Assembly (NCBI RefSeq): GCF_000975155.1
Contig: NZ_BBRG01000001.1
Coordinates: 1,460,024 to 1,524,023, forward strand
Direction of reading: 5' to 3'
Source of the DNA: Demequina globuliformis
Lineage (GTDB): Bacteria; Actinomycetota; Actinomycetes; Actinomycetales; Demequinaceae
Length of the DNA: 64,000 nucleotides
Shown here: positions 32,521-60,945 of the stretch, piece after piece
Layout of the letters: every line of letters begins with the position of its first letter
How positions within the stretch are numbered: position 1 is the first letter of the stretch
Translations under genes and position numbers: made by a program
Notes under the pieces: model-generated
Seen by the model: only the letters and a program-made list of their open reading frames with translations
Database searches by the model: none
What the model was told of the DNA's origin: nothing

Positions 32521-32593
32521 GCCGCCTTAGCTCAGTCGGCAGAGCGATTCACTCGTAATGAATAGGTCAAGGGTTCGATTCCCTTAGGCGGCT
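32521..32593 (+). tRNA. tRNA-Thr (anticodon CGT)
   Basis: A complete cloverleaf can be drawn: acceptor GCCGCCT pairing with AGGCGGC, a D arm with GCTC/GAGC, an anticodon arm ATTCA-CTCGTAA-TGAAT with anticodon CGT, and a T arm AAGGG-TTCGATT-CCCTT. The 3' CCA is not encoded. A TAGTAT box at about 32490 may be its -10. The prophage region begins right after it, so this gene is the likely integration site. Confidence 0.95.
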
Positions 32594-32600
32594 CCGATAA

Positions 32601-32885: not shown

Positions 32886-33218
32886 GTGAGTGAAGAGGCA
32901 TCAAAGCCGGACAGCGTGGAGCGCAAGATATGGATCGGCGTGGGAGTTGTGGCGTCCGTCGTCGTTGCATTCGTCGTCTGGATGCTCGCCAGCATCTCGA
33001 GCGACAACGACTACAAGGCCGAAGCGCAGGCCGCGTGCGAGGCCGATGTGCTGGCGAAGTATCACGGCGATGAGGACGTGTGGGTGTTCAGCGAGCTCGA
33101 GGGCCGCGATGGTGACCGACTTGAGTTCACGGTTCACGACTCGATTCCCGAGTTTGAGTGGACTTGCTTCGCTTCACCTGGTGACGACGGCGAGATTGTG
33201 GTCGATTCCTTCAAGTAG
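32886..33218 (+). CDS. Small membrane protein, candidate moron gene
   Basis: 110 residues: a short acidic/basic cytoplasmic N-terminus, one membrane helix (about 14-34, GVGVVASVVVAFVVWMLA), then a soluble acidic domain of about 75 residues with two cysteines (QAACEA, EWTCFAS). GTG start with an AGAGGGG ribosome site and a TACCCT box about 20 bp upstream, so it has its own transcription unit. It is the only rightward gene in the prophage region, lies between two hairpin repeats, and sits beside the tRNA. Superinfection exclusion or another lysogenic-conversion role is possible (inference). No family recognised. Confidence 0.7.
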   Translation: MSEEASKPDSVERKIWIGVGVVASVVVAFVVWMLASISSDNDYKAEAQAACEADVLAKYHGDEDVWVFSELEGRDGDRLEFTVHDSIPEFEWTCFASPGDDGEIVVDSFK

Positions 33219-33240
33219 GGACTCCCTAGAAACACCAAAA

Positions 33241-33277
33241 GCGCCCCGCCTCGACTCCGAAGAGTGAGACGGGGCGC
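33241..33277 (-). terminator. Hairpin repeat, copy 2; terminator of the leftward late operon
   Basis: Stem GCGCCCCGCCTC / GAGACGGGGCGC with one mismatch, 13-nt loop. Read on the minus strand it is followed by TTTTGGTGTTT and lies 19 bp after the holin stop, which fits a Rho-independent terminator of the late operon. It may also stop the rightward gene ending at 33218. Confidence 0.7.
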
Positions 33278-33296
33278 GAGGCAGGGGGGTGTGCGA

Positions 33297-33491
33297 CTAC
33301 TCAGCAGGCCCACTCGTGTCGGTGTTGCCCTGAGCCATTGCCGTAGCGGTGGCTGATGCGATGGCGATTGCGAACTGGCCCCAATCGCCCTGGGATGCCT
33401 CCCAGATTGACCACACAGCCAGCGCAAGAGTGATGGTGCCGTAGACGTGCCAGCGAACTCGTGCGGGCAGGATGTCGTGCAGATACTTCAT
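33297..33491 (-). CDS. Holin-like protein
   Basis: 64 residues with two hydrophobic segments (about 14-30 and 38-52, with a short turn rich in Gly/Asp/Trp between) and a polar C-terminus. Size, position right after the endolysin and a strong ribosome site (GGAGGAAGCC) fit an actinophage holin that forms membrane lesions for lysin release. Last gene of the leftward operon. Confidence 0.75.
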   Translation of the reverse strand: MKYLHDILPARVRWHVYGTITLALAVWSIWEASQGDWGQFAIAIASATATAMAQGNTDTSGPAE

Positions 33492-33500
33492 GGCTTCCTC

Positions 33501-34508
33501 CTAGAACTTGCCGGTGGCATTGAGGCGACGCTGCATCGCCTTGATGGTCATGGATGGGCCGTCCAGGTGTCCGTCACCTTTGATGCCGTAGCGCTTAGAC
33601 AGGGCGTTGATCGTGTCCGGCCCAATGCGTCCGTCATCTTCGATGCCCATTTCCCGCTGCATGGAAGCGATGAGTTGCGACCCGAGTGCCTTCGCCGATG
33701 CAACCCACTCCCAGCCGCTCGTCAGGCCAGGGTTAGCGGTCTTCCAGAAGTTCGACTGTCTCGACACCTTGCGATCTACGGGCGTTCCTTGCGACCGCTG
33801 TAGCGCCTCAGTTGTGTCGCCGCCCCAGTAGCCGTCCTCGTCAATGCCGGTCGGCTTGGGTTCAGGCTTCGGATCCGGCTTCACGTCAGGCTTCGAGTTG
33901 CCGCCACCTGAGACTTCACCTTCAAGAATGATGGCGGCGCGAGAGAACACGGCGGGAACCTGCTTGATCTTCGCATCGCCGGGACAAATCTTGCCGCGCG
34001 ACCGTGAGTAGTACATGCCGCCGCCACGCTGCAAACGTCCGGCGCGAATGTCGGGCAGGTCAGGGAAGTTGCCGTCGATGCCGAGACGATGCCAGGACAG
34101 TCCGCGCGATTCATCCCCGAGCTTCGATGAGGTCGCCATGCGCAATGAGACGCCGTGAGTCTTGACGCACCAAGCGTAGAACTCTGCCAGCGCTTCAACC
34201 TGCGCGTCAGTCCAGGGTTCGCCGTTCGCATTCTTCACGCCACCCTGAGTCTCGACGCTGATCGTCGCATCGTTGCCCTCGAGGTCGGCCTCTGCCATGT
34301 AGTCGGTGTCCACGTACTGCTCGAACACGCCATCTTTGCGCAGGTACATGTGCGACGAGGGCTTGCCGGGTCCGTTGAAGTAGCCATGAAGTGACGACGC
34401 TTCCGAGACGGCAACATGCAGGTTCACGCGGTTGTGCGTCACGAGTTTGCGACCGGGCAGATACTTCGCGTCGATGGGCTTCCAGATTGCGCCGGGATAG
34501 CGGGCCAT
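33501..34508 (-). CDS. Endolysin, N-acetylmuramoyl-L-alanine amidase type
   Basis: 335 residues. An N-terminal Amidase_2 domain (about 1-185) has NLHVAVSEAS with the first zinc His, the substrate-loop SWHRLGIDG, and SRGKICPGDAKI giving the Cys/Asp ligand segment. A Pro/Lys/Asp linker follows (DVKPDPKPEPKPTG). The C-terminal part resembles a peptidoglycan-binding domain (GIEDDGRIGPDTINAL and MQRRLNATG). It cleaves the stem peptide from muramic acid at the end of infection. Starts with ATG after an intergenic region containing palindromic operators. Confidence 0.88.
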   Translation of the reverse strand: MARYPGAIWKPIDAKYLPGRKLVTHNRVNLHVAVSEASSLHGYFNGPGKPSSHMYLRKDGVFEQYVDTDYMAEADLEGNDATISVETQGGVKNANGEPWTDAQVEALAEFYAWCVKTHGVSLRMATSSKLGDESRGLSWHRLGIDGNFPDLPDIRAGRLQRGGGMYYSRSRGKICPGDAKIKQVPAVFSRAAIILEGEVSGGGNSKPDVKPDPKPEPKPTGIDEDGYWGGDTTEALQRSQGTPVDRKVSRQSNFWKTANPGLTSGWEWVASAKALGSQLIASMQREMGIEDDGRIGPDTINALSKRYGIKGDGHLDGPSMTIKAMQRRLNATGKF

Positions 34509-34611
34509 GATTCCTCCAAAGGGTTAGCGGCATGGCGGGGAAGAGGTCGGTCACGCTTCCGTCGAAACGGCCCCTAGGAGGTGCCCCGGCGCGACCACGC
34601 AGGGCAGGCGA

Positions 34612-34683
34612 TGTCACCGAACGGTGACAACAGGTGAGATGTCACCGAACGGTGACATTGGGGAATGTCGCGTAGTCACGACA
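34612..34683. promoter_or_regulatory. Three evenly spaced palindromes, candidate phage operators
   Basis: TGTCACCGAACGGTGACA occurs twice, exactly, at 34612-34629 and 34640-34657 (perfect 8-bp arms around AA). A degenerate 18-bp relative, TGTCGCGTAGTCACGACA, is at 34666-34683. Start-to-start spacings are 28 and 26 bp. They lie in the only sizeable gap of the lysis end, between the DnaQ-like nuclease and the endolysin. Binding by the phage repressor or an early regulator would let the lysis genes be silenced in the lysogen. Function inferred. Confidence 0.6.
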
Positions 34684-34705
34684 CGGCACAACGGGCCGCG
34701 TTATC

Positions 34706-35509
34706 TCAGCGCACGGTTCGCAACAGCGTGCGGGCCTTGACGAAGTTGCGTCGCTGGAATGCGCCACACGCCTTGCACTTCACCAGCGCATAGTTCGTGA
34801 GCGCGGTCATTGCCGACCTGCCCTCTACAAGTGCGAGCTCGGACTTGCCGCAGTTGCAGCAGACCTCGACGGGGTTGCCGGACTCATCATGCCCGGCCCA
34901 CAGGTTGAGGTTCGGATGGTCTTTGATCCAGGGGCGCATGGCATCCATCGCGCGCTCAGTCTGAATCACGTCCCCGATGTTGTATTCCTCCATGAGCGCG
35001 TGAGCCTCAGTGTCGCCGCGCAGGAAGTCCGTCCACAACGCGAACCCCTGGTGAGCAACCTTGCCACCCAGTCCGAAAGCATCCAGCGTCTCGGCCAACG
35101 ATGCGTAGTCCCAGCCCATGCGCTTGCTTGTGCGCATGAGGTCAAGCGAGCGATACGGCGACGGCTCAGGGATGCCCATGCGTGCAAACTCGCCGCGCAA
35201 CTTGGCCTCATCGAACCTGATCGAGTTGTACCCGACCACGATGTCTGCCTGGTCCATGAGGTCGCGGATCGAAACGAGCATGTCACGGTAGCCGGGAACG
35301 TCCTCGGGCTGCATGAACATGGAGTCGACCGGATCAATGGCGCGATACGTGACATCGGGGTCGCCGTACCATTTGGCCGCGAACGAGATAGTGGACGAGC
35401 GAATGAGTTGCTTCTCGCGGCCCATGTACTTCACGCGCGGACCCCATGAGAGGTACACGCCGGGGCGACGCTCGATATCGAACGTCAGCACCTTTGCGCG
35501 GGTGGTCAT
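34706..35509 (-). CDS. Ribonuclease-H-like 3'-5' exonuclease (DnaQ/DEDD-type)
   Basis: 267 residues. DEDD exonuclease pattern: Exo I Asp/Glu in LTFDIERRPG, Exo II in VGYNSIRFDEAKL (Asn-x5-Asp), and an Exo III-like YNIGDVIQTERA segment. The C-terminal 65 residues carry two CxxC knuckles (CCNCG, CKACG). Similar proteins in actinophages are annotated as RNase H-like or DNA polymerase exonuclease domains. Its place beside the lysis genes, far from replication genes, is unusual. Start: ATG 35509; GTG 35542 has a better ribosome site (GGAGGG) and would add 11 residues while overlapping the upstream gene. Confidence 0.78.
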   Translation of the reverse strand: MTTRAKVLTFDIERRPGVYLSWGPRVKYMGREKQLIRSSTISFAAKWYGDPDVTYRAIDPVDSMFMQPEDVPGYRDMLVSIRDLMDQADIVVGYNSIRFDEAKLRGEFARMGIPEPSPYRSLDLMRTSKRMGWDYASLAETLDAFGLGGKVAHQGFALWTDFLRGDTEAHALMEEYNIGDVIQTERAMDAMRPWIKDHPNLNLWAGHDESGNPVEVCCNCGKSELALVEGRSAMTALTNYALVKCKACGAFQRRNFVKARTLLRTVR

Positions 35510-35528
35510 TGTGTGCTGGCGTGCGGCC

Positions 35529-35783
35529 TCAGCGATCCCCACAGGAGCACCCTCCCTTGAGGTGGCTCGCAAAGGCGTTGTACCTGAGCGTAAGGCCATC
35601 GTCCAGAACCTCGCGATACAACTTCGCCATGTTCCATCCACCCGCATGAGCGAGAGCGAGTTGCTTCAGTGATGCCAATGCCTCGCGAAGGTCGGGCGAA
35701 AGGGACTGCTCCCAATCGCCCACGCCGCATCGTGTGCGGGGGTCGGCTTTCGGCCCCGACTCCAGTGCTTGTGCTAGTCCCAT
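35529..35783 (-). CDS. Small HTH-like protein with C-terminal CxC tail
   Basis: 84 residues. The C-terminal half (MAKLYREVLDDGLTLRYNAF then ASHLKGGCSCGD) resembles small actinophage helix-turn-helix proteins that end in a Gly/Cys tail. Probable DNA-binding protein, encoded just upstream of and likely coupled to the exonuclease. Target unknown. Confidence 0.6.
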   Translation of the reverse strand: MGLAQALESGPKADPRTRCGVGDWEQSLSPDLREALASLKQLALAHAGGWNMAKLYREVLDDGLTLRYNAFASHLKGGCSCGDR

Positions 35784-35806
35784 TGCGCCCTCCTAGCGTC
35801 GTTGGG

Positions 35807-36112
35807 TTAGTTGAAGATCGTTGCCAGCGTCGTCACCACTGAGCCGACCAGCAGCACGCCGCCGGATACGGCTGTCCACAGTTGCCACGGCGCAATCGTC
35901 TTGCGTGCTTCAACAGCGCGCAGCCGGTCCTCGTGGTCGTGATAGCGGGCATCGTTCAGCGCCCGGTCCTCGTATCGCTGTTGCTCCGATGAATCCTGCT
36001 TTGCGATCAGGGTGTCCAACTTGCCGCCCAGGTCAGCAAAGCCCTCTTTCATCTGCCCCTCCAACTTGGCGATTTCGACTGCCTCTATGGAGTGCGTCTT
36101 GTCGGGTGTCAT
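35807..36112 (-). CDS. Phage membrane protein with coiled coil
   Basis: 101 residues: a heptad-like polar region (about 10-70, EGQMKEGFADLGGKLDTLIA and EDRLRAVEARK) then one C-terminal membrane helix (about 78-98). This layout is shared with XhlA-type or gp-17-like proteins encoded beside lysis genes in many siphoviruses. The ATG at 36112 was chosen because it falls just after the upstream stop. A role in lysis or membrane association is inferred from position. Confidence 0.65.
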   Translation of the reverse strand: MTPDKTHSIEAVEIAKLEGQMKEGFADLGGKLDTLIAKQDSSEQQRYEDRALNDARYHDHEDRLRAVEARKTIAPWQLWTAVSGGVLLVGSVVTTLATIFN

Positions 36113-36117
36113 GACCG

Positions 36118-36648
36118 CTACCCCGCACCGCTTGTGGGTGTCACCTGAATCGCGTGCCAGTGCCACGCGACGGATGTGCCCGCCTCGGGGCGCAGGTCAA
36201 AGCCAGATGTAGTGACGTTGAGGATGAGCGCGGATGCGCCAATGGCAGAGCCCGACGCGGACGTCACCTGAGCGGTGACGATCGGGGGGTGTGTGAAGCG
36301 TCCTGAAGGAAAGGTGACCGCACGGAAGCCACCCGGCGTGAGGTTAGGAGTCACACCGGCGGCGACCGCAAAGGGGCCGTTCGCATAGTGCGTCACCCAC
36401 GCACTCCCATCCACGCTCGACTGCAACTGCGCACCCACTGGTTGAGCCTTGTTGTGGACATACAGCGGGTTATCGGCACTCGGCGCTTCCATGCCCTTCG
36501 TCGCCAGCCACGGCACCAGAACATCATCGCGCTCAGTGTTGTCCGCGACGGGGAAGATGGAACGGCGCGATAGCGTGTTCCAAATGTCCTGGAACGGCTG
36601 CATCTGGTCGCCGGGGACGAGTGACGGCCATGTGTCCTGTGTGGTCAT
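36118..36648 (-). CDS. Minor tail/receptor protein with H-type lectin-like domain
   Basis: 176 residues. The N-terminal third may attach to the tail. The C-terminal part (about 100-172) follows the H-type lectin pattern: FPSGRFTHPPIVTAQV, then NVTTSGFDLR, ending WHWHAIQVTP. Such domains bind carbohydrates, so this may be the receptor-binding element of the tail tip. The start ATG overlaps the upstream small gene stop by 4 bp. Confidence 0.65.
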   Translation of the reverse strand: MTTQDTWPSLVPGDQMQPFQDIWNTLSRRSIFPVADNTERDDVLVPWLATKGMEAPSADNPLYVHNKAQPVGAQLQSSVDGSAWVTHYANGPFAVAAGVTPNLTPGGFRAVTFPSGRFTHPPIVTAQVTSASGSAIGASALILNVTTSGFDLRPEAGTSVAWHWHAIQVTPTSGAG

Positions 36649-36785
36649 GGGGTTTCCTCCGTGGGTTCAGGCTCGGGGTCAGGGTCAACGGGCGGTTCGG
36701 GCGTAGGCATGGGGTGGGCGTCGTGGAAGGTGGCGTGCGCAGCCGCATCGCCCACGACCACGCCGCATTTGCAGACGGTCCACAT
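36645..36785 (-). CDS. 46-residue acidic protein with zinc-knuckle-like N-terminus
   Basis: Codes for 46 residues: a CKC...H....H arrangement in the first half (MWTVCKCG then AHATFHDAH) and a Pro/Glu/Asp tail. It fills the space between two tail genes, starts 1 bp after the upstream stop and overlaps the next start by ATGA, which supports it as a real gene. Function unknown. Confidence 0.6.
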   Translation of the reverse strand: MWTVCKCGVVVGDAAAHATFHDAHPMPTPEPPVDPDPEPEPTEETP

Positions 36786-36786
36786 G

Positions 36787-37998
36787 TCACACGGCCTTCA
36801 CGTAGGTGATTTCGATGGACATTGAGCCGCCTGTGCCGTAGAAGCCCGCGTCGCCAGGGCCAACGAGCGCCAGGCCTTTGATCGACCCGGTGCGCAATCC
36901 CTCGCGCATGGCCGATGAGAGCGCGACGGTCCGTGTGGACCCCTTACCCATTGACGGCGCCGTGACGGTCGCGCCGGTCAACGAAGGTGCGCCACCGGGG
37001 ATCGAGCCGTTGGTGGAGCCTCGAACGACGGCAGATTCAGCGCCCGCTCCGGCATAGTCGTTGCGCTTGAGCTTGAGGGTCGCTTTGGTGATTTCTACGG
37101 CGCCCAAGTTGGCGATACGGCTCCCGTAGACAGCGAGGCCGGTCATGTCGCCAGACCCGTAGGCGTTGCCCTGGTACAGGGCGCGGGGGAAGTCCCAGCG
37201 GCCACGATTCCAATCGTTCCAACGGTTTACGCTGTTGCGGTACGTGCCAGAGTCGGAGGGCTGAATGGTCGTCGTGAACGTCTTGTACTTCACGGCAGCG
37301 TCGCGAGATATGGCCTGCGATCCACTCCACCCCGACGAGCCGCCAGTGTTGTTGGCCTGAATCGCCACAGTGAGTGTCTGGCCCTGGGCTAGTCCAAAGG
37401 TCGCCACCGGCACATCGTTCGACACATACGACCAGGCGCCGCCATAGTTGAAGCGGAACCGGTATCCCGTCGCGCCGCTCGATGGGTTGGCGGTGGCGGT
37501 GACGGTGTTGCCGTCGAGCGACAGGGACAGGCCTGTTGGCGTCGCGGGCGCAGATGCGGCCACGCCTACCTCGCCGACGACCCACGCCTTGCCATTGTCG
37601 TCCCACTGGATCAGCACCTTGTCGTTGACGCTAATCACGGCAGACACAATCGACCCGGCGACCACCGTGCCTGCCGTAGTCGAGATGGTGACAGTCGAGC
37701 CGCTGATCGCAGTCACGGTGCCCGTCGAAGGGCGCGACAGAGGCGTGCGAGCAATGCCGATGCTCCCCAGCGCCACCGGTCCAGCGGGATCGCGAGTGAT
37801 GTAGGCGGTCTGCCCCGGCGCATAGTCGCCAATGAATCCCACCGCGGGAATCACTATCGTTGACTCACCAGCGGCGACTTCGATGCGACGTGCATCCTCG
37901 TCAACCGACACAACCTCAGCCCGCCAATATGGGTCATTGTCGCCGTGGGCGCGCTTGACTGACTGCAAGGCGTTTGCGAGCTTGTCTGACACGCTCAC
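36787..37998 (-). CDS. Minor tail / baseplate protein
   Basis: 403 residues. The N-terminal part is an OB-like barrel region (about 25-90, YWRAEVVSVDEDARRIEV). The middle resembles a fibronectin-III-like fold (TPTGLSLSLDGNTVTATANP, then a YRFRFNYGG segment). The C-terminal part is beta-rich. Position downstream of the tape measure and DUF5047-like gene supports a tail-tip role. Overlaps the upstream stop by ATGA-type coupling (37995-37998). Confidence 0.7.
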   Translation of the reverse strand: MSVSDKLANALQSVKRAHGDNDPYWRAEVVSVDEDARRIEVAAGESTIVIPAVGFIGDYAPGQTAYITRDPAGPVALGSIGIARTPLSRPSTGTVTAISGSTVTISTTAGTVVAGSIVSAVISVNDKVLIQWDDNGKAWVVGEVGVAASAPATPTGLSLSLDGNTVTATANPSSGATGYRFRFNYGGAWSYVSNDVPVATFGLAQGQTLTVAIQANNTGGSSGWSGSQAISRDAAVKYKTFTTTIQPSDSGTYRNSVNRWNDWNRGRWDFPRALYQGNAYGSGDMTGLAVYGSRIANLGAVEITKATLKLKRNDYAGAGAESAVVRGSTNGSIPGGAPSLTGATVTAPSMGKGSTRTVALSSAMREGLRTGSIKGLALVGPGDAGFYGTGGSMSIEITYVKAV

Positions 37999-48121: not shown

Positions 48122-48694
48122 TTAGACGTTCCCGCCCAATGCGGCGGCGAACATTTCAGCGGTGGAGGTCTTGCCCGCCGAAGTCGCCCCTTGGGACGTG
48201 TCCGGTAGTACCTCCGTCTTGCCGCCTCGCGCGGCCAGGTGAGGCTTCCGTTCGATCAGGTCCGCAATCGCTGCGGACACTGCGGCAGAATCAATCTCGC
48301 CGTCGTCGGATACCTCAAAGTCAGTGGGGTCGATGAACGCGAGGGCATCCATCGGGTCTGCAAGCTTGCCCGTGGCGGCGGCTCGGAGTTCAGCACTCAC
48401 GATGCGCTGATTGGCCTTCGCCAGTGCCTCGTCGCGCACCTTTGCGGCCTCTAGTTCCGCAGCGTGCTCGGCTTCGCGGCCTTGCTCCTTGGCCTCAAGC
48501 GCGGCAATGCGCTCCTTGGCCTCGCGTGCGGCCTTCTCTGCGGCCTTGCGAGCCTCGCGCTCTGCCTGAATCGCCTTCTTGCCAGCGTCGCCCAGGTCGG
48601 GTGCGGCACTAGCGTTCTCTACGACCTCTTGAGTCGAGTCGGGCGCGGCTGCGGTGGCTTCTGTCGCGTCTGCGGCGGGTGCTTCTGTGGTCAT
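48122..48694 (-). CDS. Scaffolding protein
   Basis: 190 residues. An acidic Ala/Thr N-terminus, a long Ala/Glu/Lys coiled-coil (about 45-115, EREARKAAEKAAREAKERI), then a short C-terminal domain (MDALAFIDPTDFEVSDDG). Typical of capsid scaffolds. ATG 48694 has the site GGAGGTTCCC. Encoded right before the capsid. Confidence 0.82.
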   Translation of the reverse strand: MTTEAPAADATEATAAAPDSTQEVVENASAAPDLGDAGKKAIQAEREARKAAEKAAREAKERIAALEAKEQGREAEHAAELEAAKVRDEALAKANQRIVSAELRAAATGKLADPMDALAFIDPTDFEVSDDGEIDSAAVSAAIADLIERKPHLAARGGKTEVLPDTSQGATSAGKTSTAEMFAAALGGNV

Positions 48695-53212: not shown

Positions 53213-53270
53213 GAAGATCACCTGTCTCTCGCCGCATCGCGCGGTCGGACCCCTCGCGTCGCGCGAGGGG

Positions 53271-54002
53271 CTAGGCAGTGAGCGCTAGGCTCGTAAGGTG
53301 CGAAATCTTGGGGTGGAGTGAACGCAAGGGAAGCCCCCGACGCCTGCGATCTGCCGCCCACTCCGACATGGACAGTTCGCGTTTGTCGCCGTTGCACTTC
53401 TGGCAGGACGGAACGATGTTGTGAATCGAGTTCGAGCCGCCAACGCTCAGTGCAACTACGTGATCCGGCTCAATGTCGGCAAGGGGAAAGTATTCGTGGC
53501 AGTAGGCGCACACTCGACCAATGTCGCGGTAGACGCTCGCGACCTCGGACCACGTGTACGTGCCGGGCGCTGCATACTCTCGTGCCCGGCGGCGCATGTT
53601 CTTGGCGGCGCGCTTGCATGGCATTGAACACACGATGGCGTCGTGGCGCTTGGTCCAGAACTGCTCGCCGCACCACCCGCAGTCGATGTATCGCCACCTC
53701 ATGACGGCATCCATCTCCGCGTCGATTGCATCAGGAAGATCGTTCGTCACGGCGGCAATCTCGCGAACCTCCGCGCGCTTTGCCTTGAGCTCGGCGTTTC
53801 GGCGCGCACTCCGCTCGCGCTCTTTGGCCACCTTCGCCGGGTCGAGCCTGTCGCGTTCGCGAGCAGCACGGCGACGGGCTGCATCTTCGGCGGGATCGCC
53901 GTGGCGCTCGGGGCAGTACGCCCGGTTGTAGTGCGCGGCGCATAGTCCACGGGCGCGAAACGGCTTGTCACAATCGGGCAGCGAGCAGGTACGCTTACTC
54001 AC
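53271..54002 (-). CDS. HNH endonuclease upstream of the terminase
   Basis: 243 residues. N-terminal zinc module of the pattern CSLPDCDKPFRARGLCAAH as in the HNH protein at 42792, a highly charged helical linker, a second CxxC (DCGWCGEQF) and a C-terminal HNH domain (CAYCHEYFPL, IEPDHVVAL, HNIVPSCQKCNGDK). GTG 54002 has AAGGAG 7 nt upstream; the ATG at 54017 lacks a ribosome site. HNH nucleases near terminase genes often assist cos cleavage or act as homing endonucleases. Confidence 0.82.
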   Translation of the reverse strand: MSKRTCSLPDCDKPFRARGLCAAHYNRAYCPERHGDPAEDAARRRAARERDRLDPAKVAKERERSARRNAELKAKRAEVREIAAVTNDLPDAIDAEMDAVMRWRYIDCGWCGEQFWTKRHDAIVCSMPCKRAAKNMRRRAREYAAPGTYTWSEVASVYRDIGRVCAYCHEYFPLADIEPDHVVALSVGGSNSIHNIVPSCQKCNGDKRELSMSEWAADRRRRGLPLRSLHPKISHLTSLALTA

Positions 54003-54063
54003 GTCGAACTCCTTCATAGTTCGGCCATGCCCCCGGTCTGTTAGCGCAGATGCGGGGGTCTGA

Positions 54064-55978: not shown

Positions 55979-56181
55979 CACGAGACTCCTTTCGTGCGCT
56001 TCTTGGTGGGCTTGGTGTTCTTGGTGGTGTGCCAGGCGTCGCAGTAGGGGCACTGGTATGGCCTGAGTCGTGGCGCGCGCTTGGGCTTGGTGGATCGCCA
56101 TTGGTGGATGTGCTCGTCGACCTCTTGGCGGGTGCGCATGGCTTTGAGCGTGATGGGGCAGCGGGGGAGCGGGTCGGTCAT
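55975..56181 (-). CDS. Zinc-ribbon microprotein
   Basis: 68 residues, very basic. The core RPYQCPYCDAWHTTKNTK is a CxxC...H knuckle common in actinophage early genes. Overlaps both neighbours by 4 bp. Function unknown. Confidence 0.65.
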   Translation of the reverse strand: MTDPLPRCPITLKAMRTRQEVDEHIHQWRSTKPKRAPRLRPYQCPYCDAWHTTKNTKPTKKRTKGVSW

Positions 56182-56981
56182 TGGCGGGGCTCCTTCGCGG
56201 CGCTGAACGCCTCTCGCACGTGAGCCGGCATGCCCACCGACTCAACGTGGTGGCAGGTGCGTCCGTTGTCGAGTCGTCCGTTCGGGCCGCACATGTCGCA
56301 GGCGTCGATGGCTTCCTGCTTGAGTGCGGCATCACGTCGCGCTGCGGACGATGCGGCTTGGGACTTCTCGCGGGCATCCTCCGCCTGGGCCTTCTCGATT
56401 GCGACGGCACATCCTCGGCACGGACGCGCAGCGTCGTGCTTCCGTCCACATGGCTGAATGTCGGGGGCGGTCGATTCCTCGCGCGTTACGGAAGTCTCTT
56501 TCCCTACGAAAGGTGAGTTAGTAGTAGGGGGACGGGACGGGTCGGGACGGGTCGGGACGGGAGAGGCGTACGGGTCCGTACGTACGCCGGTGTCATGCTG
56601 TTCGTACGTTGTTACAGGTGCGGTATCTACCTGGGGTTTCTTGCCGCTCTTGCGTGCGCGCCACTCGGCCACGCGCGCTCTCTCGTCCTCGCGTTTCTGC
56701 TCAACATCAGCCTTGGTCGGCTGATACTTCGCCCAGTTGATGAACTGGTAGCCGGCTTTCGTGCGCTTCCACATGCGCGCATCGACCAGCGTTTCGGCCC
56801 CGTCAAGGGTGCCGACGAACGACTCGACGATGCCGCGCGGGATCTTGCCGTCGGTGAGGTGTTGCGTGCTCCATGTTCCGCACGCGACCCATGTTCCGAG
56901 CGCGAGTCCTCTCTCGCTCAGCAGCATCATGAGCACCTTTTCGTCGCTCATGAGCGTGTCCGTCACTTTGAACCACGGCAT
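56178..56981 (-). CDS. Replication-initiation-like protein
   Basis: 267 residues. The N-terminal winged-helix-like domain (WFKVTDTLMSDEKVLMMLLS; GTWVACGTWSTQHLTDGKIP) is found in phage replisome-organiser proteins. A Pro/Thr/Arg-rich low-complexity linker (about 130-170) follows, and the C-terminal part has a Cys-rich CGRKHDAARPCRGC and a second CDMCGPNG. The start overlaps the RusA-like stop (TGATG). Replication initiation is likely but not proved. Confidence 0.62.
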   Translation of the reverse strand: MPWFKVTDTLMSDEKVLMMLLSERGLALGTWVACGTWSTQHLTDGKIPRGIVESFVGTLDGAETLVDARMWKRTKAGYQFINWAKYQPTKADVEQKREDERARVAEWRARKSGKKPQVDTAPVTTYEQHDTGVRTDPYASPVPTRPDPSRPPTTNSPFVGKETSVTREESTAPDIQPCGRKHDAARPCRGCAVAIEKAQAEDAREKSQAASSAARRDAALKQEAIDACDMCGPNGRLDNGRTCHHVESVGMPAHVREAFSAAKEPRQ

Positions 56982-57349
56982 CAGTCGCTCACCTCCTGCA
57001 TCTCTAGTCGCACGGTGTGGTGTCCTTTCGGGGCCTTGACCGAATCGCGGCGCATGTCGGGGCCGATTACCCACTCGTGGCTGTCCTCAACGAGCAGTCC
57101 AGCGGCCACGAGCCCATCGATTGCCGCCTTGACGGTCGGGTACGCATTCGCGGGATCTGCCTTGCCGTTGGCGGCGTATCCGACGTGGGCGACGATGCGC
57201 ACTGGCTTTGCATAGGGCCTGAAGCAGCGCCCTTCCGACCATGCGAGTTCGCGGATCCATGCCGTGCGCTTGGCTTTGGGGGCCCAGTGGAGGCGTTGGT
57301 TCGAGCTGAGCCATTGGGTGTTGGGGATGAGCAGGGTGATGGTCGTCAT
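56981..57349 (-). CDS. RusA-like Holliday junction resolvase
   Basis: 122 residues. The pattern ADPANAYPTVKAAIDGLV then VEDSHEWV matches RusA, with its acidic catalytic residues (Asp in DPAN, Asp in AAIDGL, Asp in EDS). RusA resolves recombination intermediates of phage DNA. An N-terminal basic WAPKAKRTAW segment could bind the junction. Confidence 0.75.
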   Translation of the reverse strand: MTTITLLIPNTQWLSSNQRLHWAPKAKRTAWIRELAWSEGRCFRPYAKPVRIVAHVGYAANGKADPANAYPTVKAAIDGLVAAGLLVEDSHEWVIGPDMRRDSVKAPKGHHTVRLEMQEVSD

Positions 57350-60312: not shown

Positions 60313-60575
60313 TGGTGGTCCTTTCGTTCGACGACGCGGGCTTCCCATTCGGTGGGCTTGTGGGTACGTCCGGTGTTGGGGTGGAGTCGGTAGACCTGCA
60401 TTTGCAGGTGGAGGTATCCGTGGGTTGCGAGCCACCGGTTGCCGGCGTCACGAATGTTCGCGGCACTGGTGCGGGTTTCACGGAACCGGATCGTGGAGTA
60501 GCGGGGCATGGTCGCGAGGGCTTGCGCGGCGGCTGCTCCTGGACGTAGGGGCGTGACGGTGGCGGGGCTAGTCAT
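60309..60575 (-). CDS. Hypothetical early phage protein (small basic)
   Basis: 88 residues, basic, with [19 protein letters not shown] and [17 protein letters not shown]; no Cys. Probably DNA-associated by charge alone. Coupled on both sides (starts inside the WhiB gene's end). Function unknown. Confidence 0.55.
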
Positions 60576-60945
60576 CCCAGCCGCCCATCCATCGCCGCAG
60601 TGTCGTGGCGCTCGTGCCTACTGCGGCGGCGGCTTCGGCTTTGGTGTAGCCGCGTCGCATGAGGGCTTTGGCTCGCTTGACTCGCTGGCCCTGGTTGGCG
60701 TTCGGGTGAATGTCCTGCTTGCGACGTGTGCGCCGGATTGCCTGGCGGTCCTTGTATGACGCGCCGCCCCAGATGCCCTCAAGCTCGGGCCGGTCGAGTG
60801 CATATTCGAGGCATGCGGCTCGCACTGGGCATTCGGCGCATATCTCCTTGACTGCAGTGTTGCTCGTGCTGGGCGCGGGGAACCACGTGTCGGGGTCGAT
60901 TTCACCCTTCGCGCAGGTGCCTTGGCTGAGGTCGGCGCTCAACAT
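60568..60945 (-). CDS. WhiB-family transcriptional regulator fused to HTH domain
   Basis: 125 residues. The WhiB domain has the four cluster cysteines, Cys11, Cys36, Cys39 and Cys45 (CAECPVRAACLEYA), and the GIWGG turn at 57-61 followed by basic residues. A C-terminal extension (about 88-121) looks like a helix-turn-helix, RRGYTKAEAAAAVGTSATTLRRW. Standard WhiB proteins end soon after the basic tail. A 4Fe-4S-containing regulator of host sigma factor A is expected, with the added HTH probably giving DNA specificity. ATG 60945 follows a GGAG site. Confidence 0.88.
   Translation of the reverse strand: MLSADLSQGTCAKGEIDPDTWFPAPSTSNTAVKEICAECPVRAACLEYALDRPELEGIWGGASYKDRQAIRRTRRKQDIHPNANQGQRVKRAKALMRRGYTKAEAAAAVGTSATTLRRWMGGWDD

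Follow-up and report, generated by a model that had tools for sequence, protein, structure and literature searches.

Escherichia coli HipB is described as binding cooperatively to four 18-bp operators of the form TATCC-N8-GGATA and as bending its operator DNA by 70 degrees (PMC3920265). The stoperators of mycobacteriophage L5 are described as belonging to a set of more than 20 asymmetric 13-mers that are oriented with transcription (PMC9283540). Iterons of the lambda-O type are presented as tandem imperfect inverted repeats of about 19 bp, with the lambda origin lying in the middle of the O gene (PMC7466680).

Here we analysed three tandem dyads in a prophage of Demequina globuliformis, within a stretch of 64,000 nucleotides that is called the window throughout. 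The array shares tandem 18-bp dyads with hipBA operator arrays, the sites of which are 26-27 bp apart in three genomes of the same order (in one of them at an XRE gene), and it shares repressor-type sites in an intergenic gap with the stoperators of Cluster A mycobacteriophages. Tandem dyads are also common to the lambda-O-type iterons, which carry TGTC...GACA ends in many of the phages found here. We tentatively read the array as an operator of the HipB/XRE kind, and regard it as a testable clue on lysis control and not yet as a new kind of system.

Sites and setting of the array

The prophage is integrated in tRNA-Thr(CGT) (32521-32595). Its attL and attR ends, separated by about 37.4 kb, are recognisable as two identical 49-bp copies at 32547 and L004:9971; a tyrosine-integrase ORF overlaps the right-hand copy with its listed 5' end. 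The array is located between an exonuclease gene and an endolysin gene, which together with the gap are transcribed in the minus-strand direction (Table 1). The exonuclease stop codon lies 22 bp from the array, and the listed start codon of the endolysin, an ATG with GGAGG just upstream, lies 103 bp from the nearest array site. No sigma-70-like promoter was found at 34400-34800. As the earlier note had stated, the gap is the longest among the presumed genes from 33134 to 36787. The lysis-gene setting that it proposed holds for the downstream endolysin but not for the upstream gene, which encodes a DnaQ-like exonuclease and is not a lysis gene.

Table 1. Positions of the array sites, the surrounding gap and the flanking genes in the window
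Feature	Positions	Strand	Description
Palindrome 1	34612-34629	.	TGTCACCGAACGGTGACA, 18 bp
Palindrome 2	34640-34657	.	Identical to palindrome 1; GA in front of both
Degenerate third site	34666-34683	.	TGTCGCGTAGTCACGACA, TGTC-N10-GACA dyad
Candidate structured RNA	34566-34699	-	Gap arms around the array can pair
Intergenic gap with array	34509-34705	-	197 bp
Endolysin	33501-34508	-	Amidase_2 and PG_binding_1; phrog_1493
DnaQ-like DNA polymerase exonuclease subunit	within 34706-35512	-	phrog_403, E 7e-64

Palindromes 1 and 2 each consist of two 8-bp arms around 2 central bases, and the exact repeat between palindromes 1 and 2 extends to 20 nt (GATGTCACCGAACGGTGACA). The third site retains the TGTC...GACA ends and pairs at 6 of 8 arm positions. 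The sites follow one another at 28 bp (palindrome 1 to 2) and 26 bp (palindrome 2 to the third site). The two exact copies and the degenerate third were found just as first described. Because these distances correspond to about 2.7 and 2.5 helical turns, the three sites do not lie on the same face of the helix. With up to 3 mismatches allowed, the motif has 4 matches in the window (2 sites, each read on both strands) compared with 0.10 on average over 100 shuffles that preserved dinucleotides, none of which reached 4. The pattern TGTC-N10-GACA occurs four times in the window, three of them within the array, and TGTC...GACA with each of the other gap lengths from 4 to 15 occurs 0-3 times. Motif and spacing are far beyond chance.

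The array stands alone in its genome. A search over the prophage and near its repressor, which the earlier note had proposed as a check, gave no further copies in the prophage, which is one half of the outcome that the note had named as refuting its reading, and no second TGTC-N10-GACA pair is present in the whole 2.62-Mb host genome. Outside the array, the genome holds one single site within 2 mismatches of TGTCACCGNNCGGTGACA (C8:1353962, preceding an ORF that by eye resembles a sugar-transporter binding protein), which means little, since the backward control likewise gave one. Among 44 genomes of the genus, its own included, the exact pattern occurs in its own genome only. The immunity region (L004:4025-10100) contains no relaxed array-type site, and its intergenic part (around L004:8051-8164) carries a different motif, GACGA...TCGTC repeats recognised by eye. 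Binding by the prophage's own repressor is not supported.

The suggestion of stoperator-like sites fared no better. The window has three near-symmetric 18-mers, two of them perfect apart from the 2 central bases, in one cluster for prophage and genome alike, whereas the stoperators of Cluster A mycobacteriophages are described as more than 20 asymmetric 13-mers spread genome-wide. As no second pair occurs in the host genome, a genome-wide phage repressor or stoperator system is not supported, and this reading was dropped for want of other copies. What survives of the original operator proposal is the class, tandem operator-like sites, similar arrays being present at the starts of helix-turn-helix (HTH) regulator genes.

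Likeness to regulator and initiator arrays

A covariance model of the window region, built from two identical rows, was searched in 396 genomes of the order, its own included, at E<=0.1. It matched four of the 395 other genomes (L223, L224, L225 and L226), the first three at the starts of XRE-family genes, and in L223 and L225 the XRE gene is followed by HipA. The matches are individually weak (E 4.5e-4 to 0.07 per genome, with 396 genomes searched); the informative point is that three of the four, a small number, fall at XRE gene starts. The match in L226 covers only the outer stem described below and is probably due to chance. TGTC...GACA dyads are spaced 26/26 bp in L223 and 26 bp in L224. 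By comparison, a relaxed dyad scan of L225 gave no TGTC...GACA dyad; its three nearest 18-mers lie 27/27 bp apart with 3, 5 and 6 mismatches to the window 18-mer, and the best of them contains CACCGTTCGGTG, the 12-bp core that it has in common with the window sites. The XRE proteins of L223, L224 and L225 have VSR in common in the HTH region.

The window array displays tandem 18-bp dyads close to the regular 26-27 bp of this group, at 28/26 bp, but is not located at a regulator's own gene, its neighbours being the exonuclease and the endolysin, which it precedes. Because no regulator gene stands alongside (no XRE or HipB gene, nor hipA, was recognised adjoining the array) and HipA_C has no match in the host genome, we class the array as one that may work like a hipBA operator, and not as such an operator. 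Nor was a promoter recognised at it.

Dyads of this type also occur at TetR genes. When genome contigs were searched for TGTCAC-N6-GTGACA pairs, without a control, 22 stretches emerged, four of them at the starts of TetR-family genes (L147:3519, L151:799, L153:258 and L155:5159) on contigs labelled Alphaproteobacteria, Actinomadura, Olavius delta symbiont and Bryobacterales. These have the TGTCAC-N6-GTGACA pairs in common with the window and differ from it in their spacing of 22-25 bp and in their position at the regulator gene start. The TetR reading was set aside, as the one TetR query used (L151) had only weak matches in the host genome, the best at E 2.6e-6 with 26% identity. Two further stretches lie inside phage-initiator-like ORFs (L154 and L164, by eye), five are in one Ignavibacteria assembly, and the other 11 are mixed or unclassified. 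In the Ignavibacteria assembly (CAJXVM), L156, L159, L162, L165 and L166 carry TGTCACC....GGTGACA-type pairs, apparently a dispersed repeat. A contig labelled Oxalobacteraceae (L163, REGP01000009.1, 3409 bp, 30% GC) has a short ORF that by eye resembles one on a Staphylococcus schweitzeri contig (L160), and both carry like TGTCACA dyads; L163 is perhaps a plasmid of staphylococcal origin that contaminates the assembly.

Searches of plasmid and phage DNA with the array gave weak matches, the best (E 0.05) to an actinobacterial plasmid, L229, in which two copies of CACCGAACGGTG lie 28 bp apart between two genes. A single-site scan of viral contigs with TGTCACCGNNCGGTGACA, also without a control, gave 14 stretches, from which we conclude nothing. 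On two GC-rich phage contigs, TGTCAC dyad pairs (L134:3801-3844 and L135:5194-5235) adjoin HNH-type genes, assigned by Pfam in L134 and by eye in L135 and L031. In L134, the array is followed by large ORFs, taken for terminase genes by their position. A packaging-site reading of the window array was set aside; the large terminase of its prophage lies 16.5 kb away.

Two scans of viral contigs revealed a different association. Two TGTCRC-N6-GYGACA dyads with a 6-14-bp gap occurred in 8 stretches (the window's own record being one), compared with 0 in the reversed control; three TGTC-N10-GACA dyads occurred in 48, including the own record and several near-duplicates, compared with 9, which look like ordinary tandem repeats. 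Together, the scans gave 55 distinct stretches, own record included. Near-duplicates, and arrays lacking a plausible ORF, were then excluded; of the 30 array-bearing ORFs scanned singly, 16 matched a replication-initiation PHROG at E<=1e-4 (L027, L029, L032, L036, L038, L041, L048, L052, L055-L057, L059, L061, L063, L066 and L069). The remaining 14 had no such match, L039 among them being an XRE-type regulator; in L064, outside the 30, the initiator gene adjoins its array. In the initiators printed out, the sites follow the N-terminal, winged-helix-like part. Tandem TGTC-N10-GACA dyads in such diverse phage initiator genes offer a simple sequence handle on phage origins, and are possibly a general iteron signature.

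The window array might accordingly be a set of iterons at which the initiator of the phage itself binds, with the replication origin away from the initiator gene. The prophage does encode an initiator (56178-57074; phrog_2447, E 1e-48) about 22 kb from the array, which is the only tandem dyad array that our scan found in the prophage, and the iterons of L029 are almost identical to the window sites. Against this, all 16 initiator arrays, some of them in genomes that are AT-rich overall, have a 30-bp stretch with a GC fraction of 0-0.33 within 150 bp, and their spacing is mostly 22-25 bp (exceptions L048, L055 and L069) with variable inner bases. At the window array, spaced 28/26 bp, the minimum is 0.50, a value that 79% of random prophage places reach. 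The same measure gives 0.43, 0.37 and 0.53 for L223, L224 and L225, and 0.27-0.40 for the four TetR arrays, three of which reach 0.27-0.33, so that AT-richness alone cannot separate operators from origins. Furthermore, an array-type pair is present in none of 13 records, namely those of 12 named phages, selected among 362 records, whose initiator is related, and that of L022, a relative described below. The window array also differs from lambda-O-type iterons in lying outside the initiator gene, without an AT-rich tract and with wider spacing. Having lost ground on both the AT-rich/spacing test and the related-initiator records, the replication-origin reading appears distinctly improbable.

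Translation of the initiator at 56178-57074 probably begins 31 codons downstream of the listed GTG, as the best PHROG matches set in at a methionine, residue 32; its AlphaFold model is poor (mean pLDDT 50.7).

Our comparison leaves as the best candidate an operator array of the HipB/XRE type that stands as an orphan between the exonuclease and endolysin genes. We give this reading a probability of about 0.42; it stood at 0.45 before the sites of L225 proved to be without TGTC...GACA ends. In its favour, the TGTC-N10-GACA pair is unique in the genome and far beyond chance, and neither the AT-rich flank nor the mostly 22-25-bp spacing of the 16 initiator arrays is present. The similar architecture at HipB/XRE genes of the same order, together with the TetR dyad pairs in 4 of 22 stretches, points in the same direction, as does the cooperative binding of E. 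coli HipB to four 18-bp operators. Several observations tell against it: no regulator alongside, no HipA_C and no promoter-like site were recognised, the model matches are weak, and no independent relative with the array was found. Moreover, autoregulated regulators usually carry their own operator, and the absence of a second pair in the genome thus counts against the HipB/XRE reading.

Possible pairing of the gap in RNA

The main rival places the function in RNA. The predicted outer stem formed by the gap arms has 27 pairs, 5 of them G-U, as counted by hand on the predicted structure, and the palindromes would form hairpins, or pair mutually, inside it. Such an element in the lysis transcript would act between exonuclease and endolysin, by way of pausing, of transcript stability or of processing of the RNase III type. 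Consistent with a role in the transcript, the fold of 34560-34705 is more unusual on the minus strand (-77.0 kcal/mol, z -7.5) than on the plus strand (-68.2 kcal/mol, z -4.3). Pairing of the arms without the array was reached by 1 of 1000 separately shuffled arm pairs on the minus strand, compared with 191 of 1000 on the plus strand, and an arm-only fold, with ends chosen after seeing the fold, by 2 of 500 and 204 of 500, respectively. The five G-U pairs, in addition, exist in the transcript only.

Other results weaken the RNA reading. When the array is masked and the whole gap is folded, the minus-strand result is ordinary, 154 of 1000 shuffles being as good. In a coarse scan of 854 prophage windows with 20 shuffles each, the array region fares no better on the minus strand (z -3.7) than on the plus strand (z -4.3), and other prophage windows are lower in z, down to -5.8. 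Rfam has no match in the array region, the tRNA alone scoring above the gathering score in the window, and there is no second independent sequence to show covariation of the outer stem. The third dyad and the matches at XRE genes are better explained by DNA binding, and we consider the RNA element unlikely. The strongest predicted folding in the coarse scan is located near 48176, 47081 and 54746 (z -5.8 to -4.7).

The transcript can fold into hairpins that have stems of 7-8 bp, as tandem intrinsic-type terminators between exonuclease and endolysin would demand, but no terminator-like site, a stem followed by a T run, is present on either strand at 34400-34800, and we give terminators hardly any credence.

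Possible binders and consequences for lysis

The host genome has one weak HipB-like match (E 0.002) and one HTH_36 match, the latter elsewhere than in the prophage and under the curated cut-off. Two immunity-region proteins were examined, one with a Cro/C1-type HTH match below threshold and one with no Pfam match; neither shows BLAST similarity to the HipB of L225, the only HipB compared. Judged by sequence, the array is an orphan, and its binder could be a phage, host or foreign protein. The prophage also encodes a WhiB factor (60568-60945; Pfam Whib, E 7e-18) with a C-terminal HTH-like segment, the HTH being below cut-offs.

Relatives of the locus reveal an exchanged stretch. The IMG/VR contig L013 is identical to the window across the compared stretch and is probably the same genome, and it therefore adds no independent information. 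The nearest independent relative found, L022, has an exonuclease 75% identical to that of the window, followed after about 66 bp without palindromes by a gene whose protein differs from the window endolysin, which indicates that this stretch is exchanged. Downstream of 16 related exonucleases (of 50 loci), no TGTC dyad pair occurs within 400 bases; a single dyad is present in 1 and single palindromes of other sequence are present in 7.

This exchange fits the alternative that the array is a relic, operator DNA of a lost XRE, TetR or toxin-antitoxin module that once passed through the endolysin cassette and has no present function. Also in keeping with a relic, no regulator is recognised alongside, and the host genome has no close relative of HipB or HipA. 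The gap itself is too short for a whole regulator gene. Against a relic, two copies have stayed identical over 20 nt, and we regard this reading as quite unlikely.

If the array is instead an active operator of the HipB/XRE kind, a dimeric helix-turn-helix repressor would occupy it with one dimer per 18-bp site, and neighbouring dimers would assist each other. The bent or occupied DNA would then hinder transcription into the endolysin gene, or, alternatively, the target would be a weak, unrecognised promoter of that gene. Hindrance would end with the loss or dilution of the regulator. The three dyads and the similar arrays at HipB/XRE genes of the order are observed, whereas the mechanism, the binding protein and the consequence for lysis are all inferred.

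Control of the endolysin by a HipB/XRE-type protein would link a regulator of the toxin-antitoxin type to the timing of phage lysis. A bolder version, in which the endolysin answers to a HipB-type regulator encoded outside the phage, is a long shot. Were it true, lysis would depend on a persistence-type antitoxin of the cell, supplied by the host or by a rival mobile element, and either lysis would be delayed in antitoxin-bearing cells or antitoxin loss would be the trigger. The motif string is absent from the literature searched, which says little, as most subscription papers lay outside its scope; titles and the beginnings of abstracts likewise held nothing on point for HipB with prophage and endolysin, or for operators of actinobacteriophage endolysins.

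Elsewhere in the prophage, a palindrome with perfect 9-bp arms (CCCCTCGCGTCGCGCGAGGGG, 53250-53270) separates the HNH gene (53271-54017) from the ORF that precedes the large terminase, and may be a terminator or belong to the packaging region.
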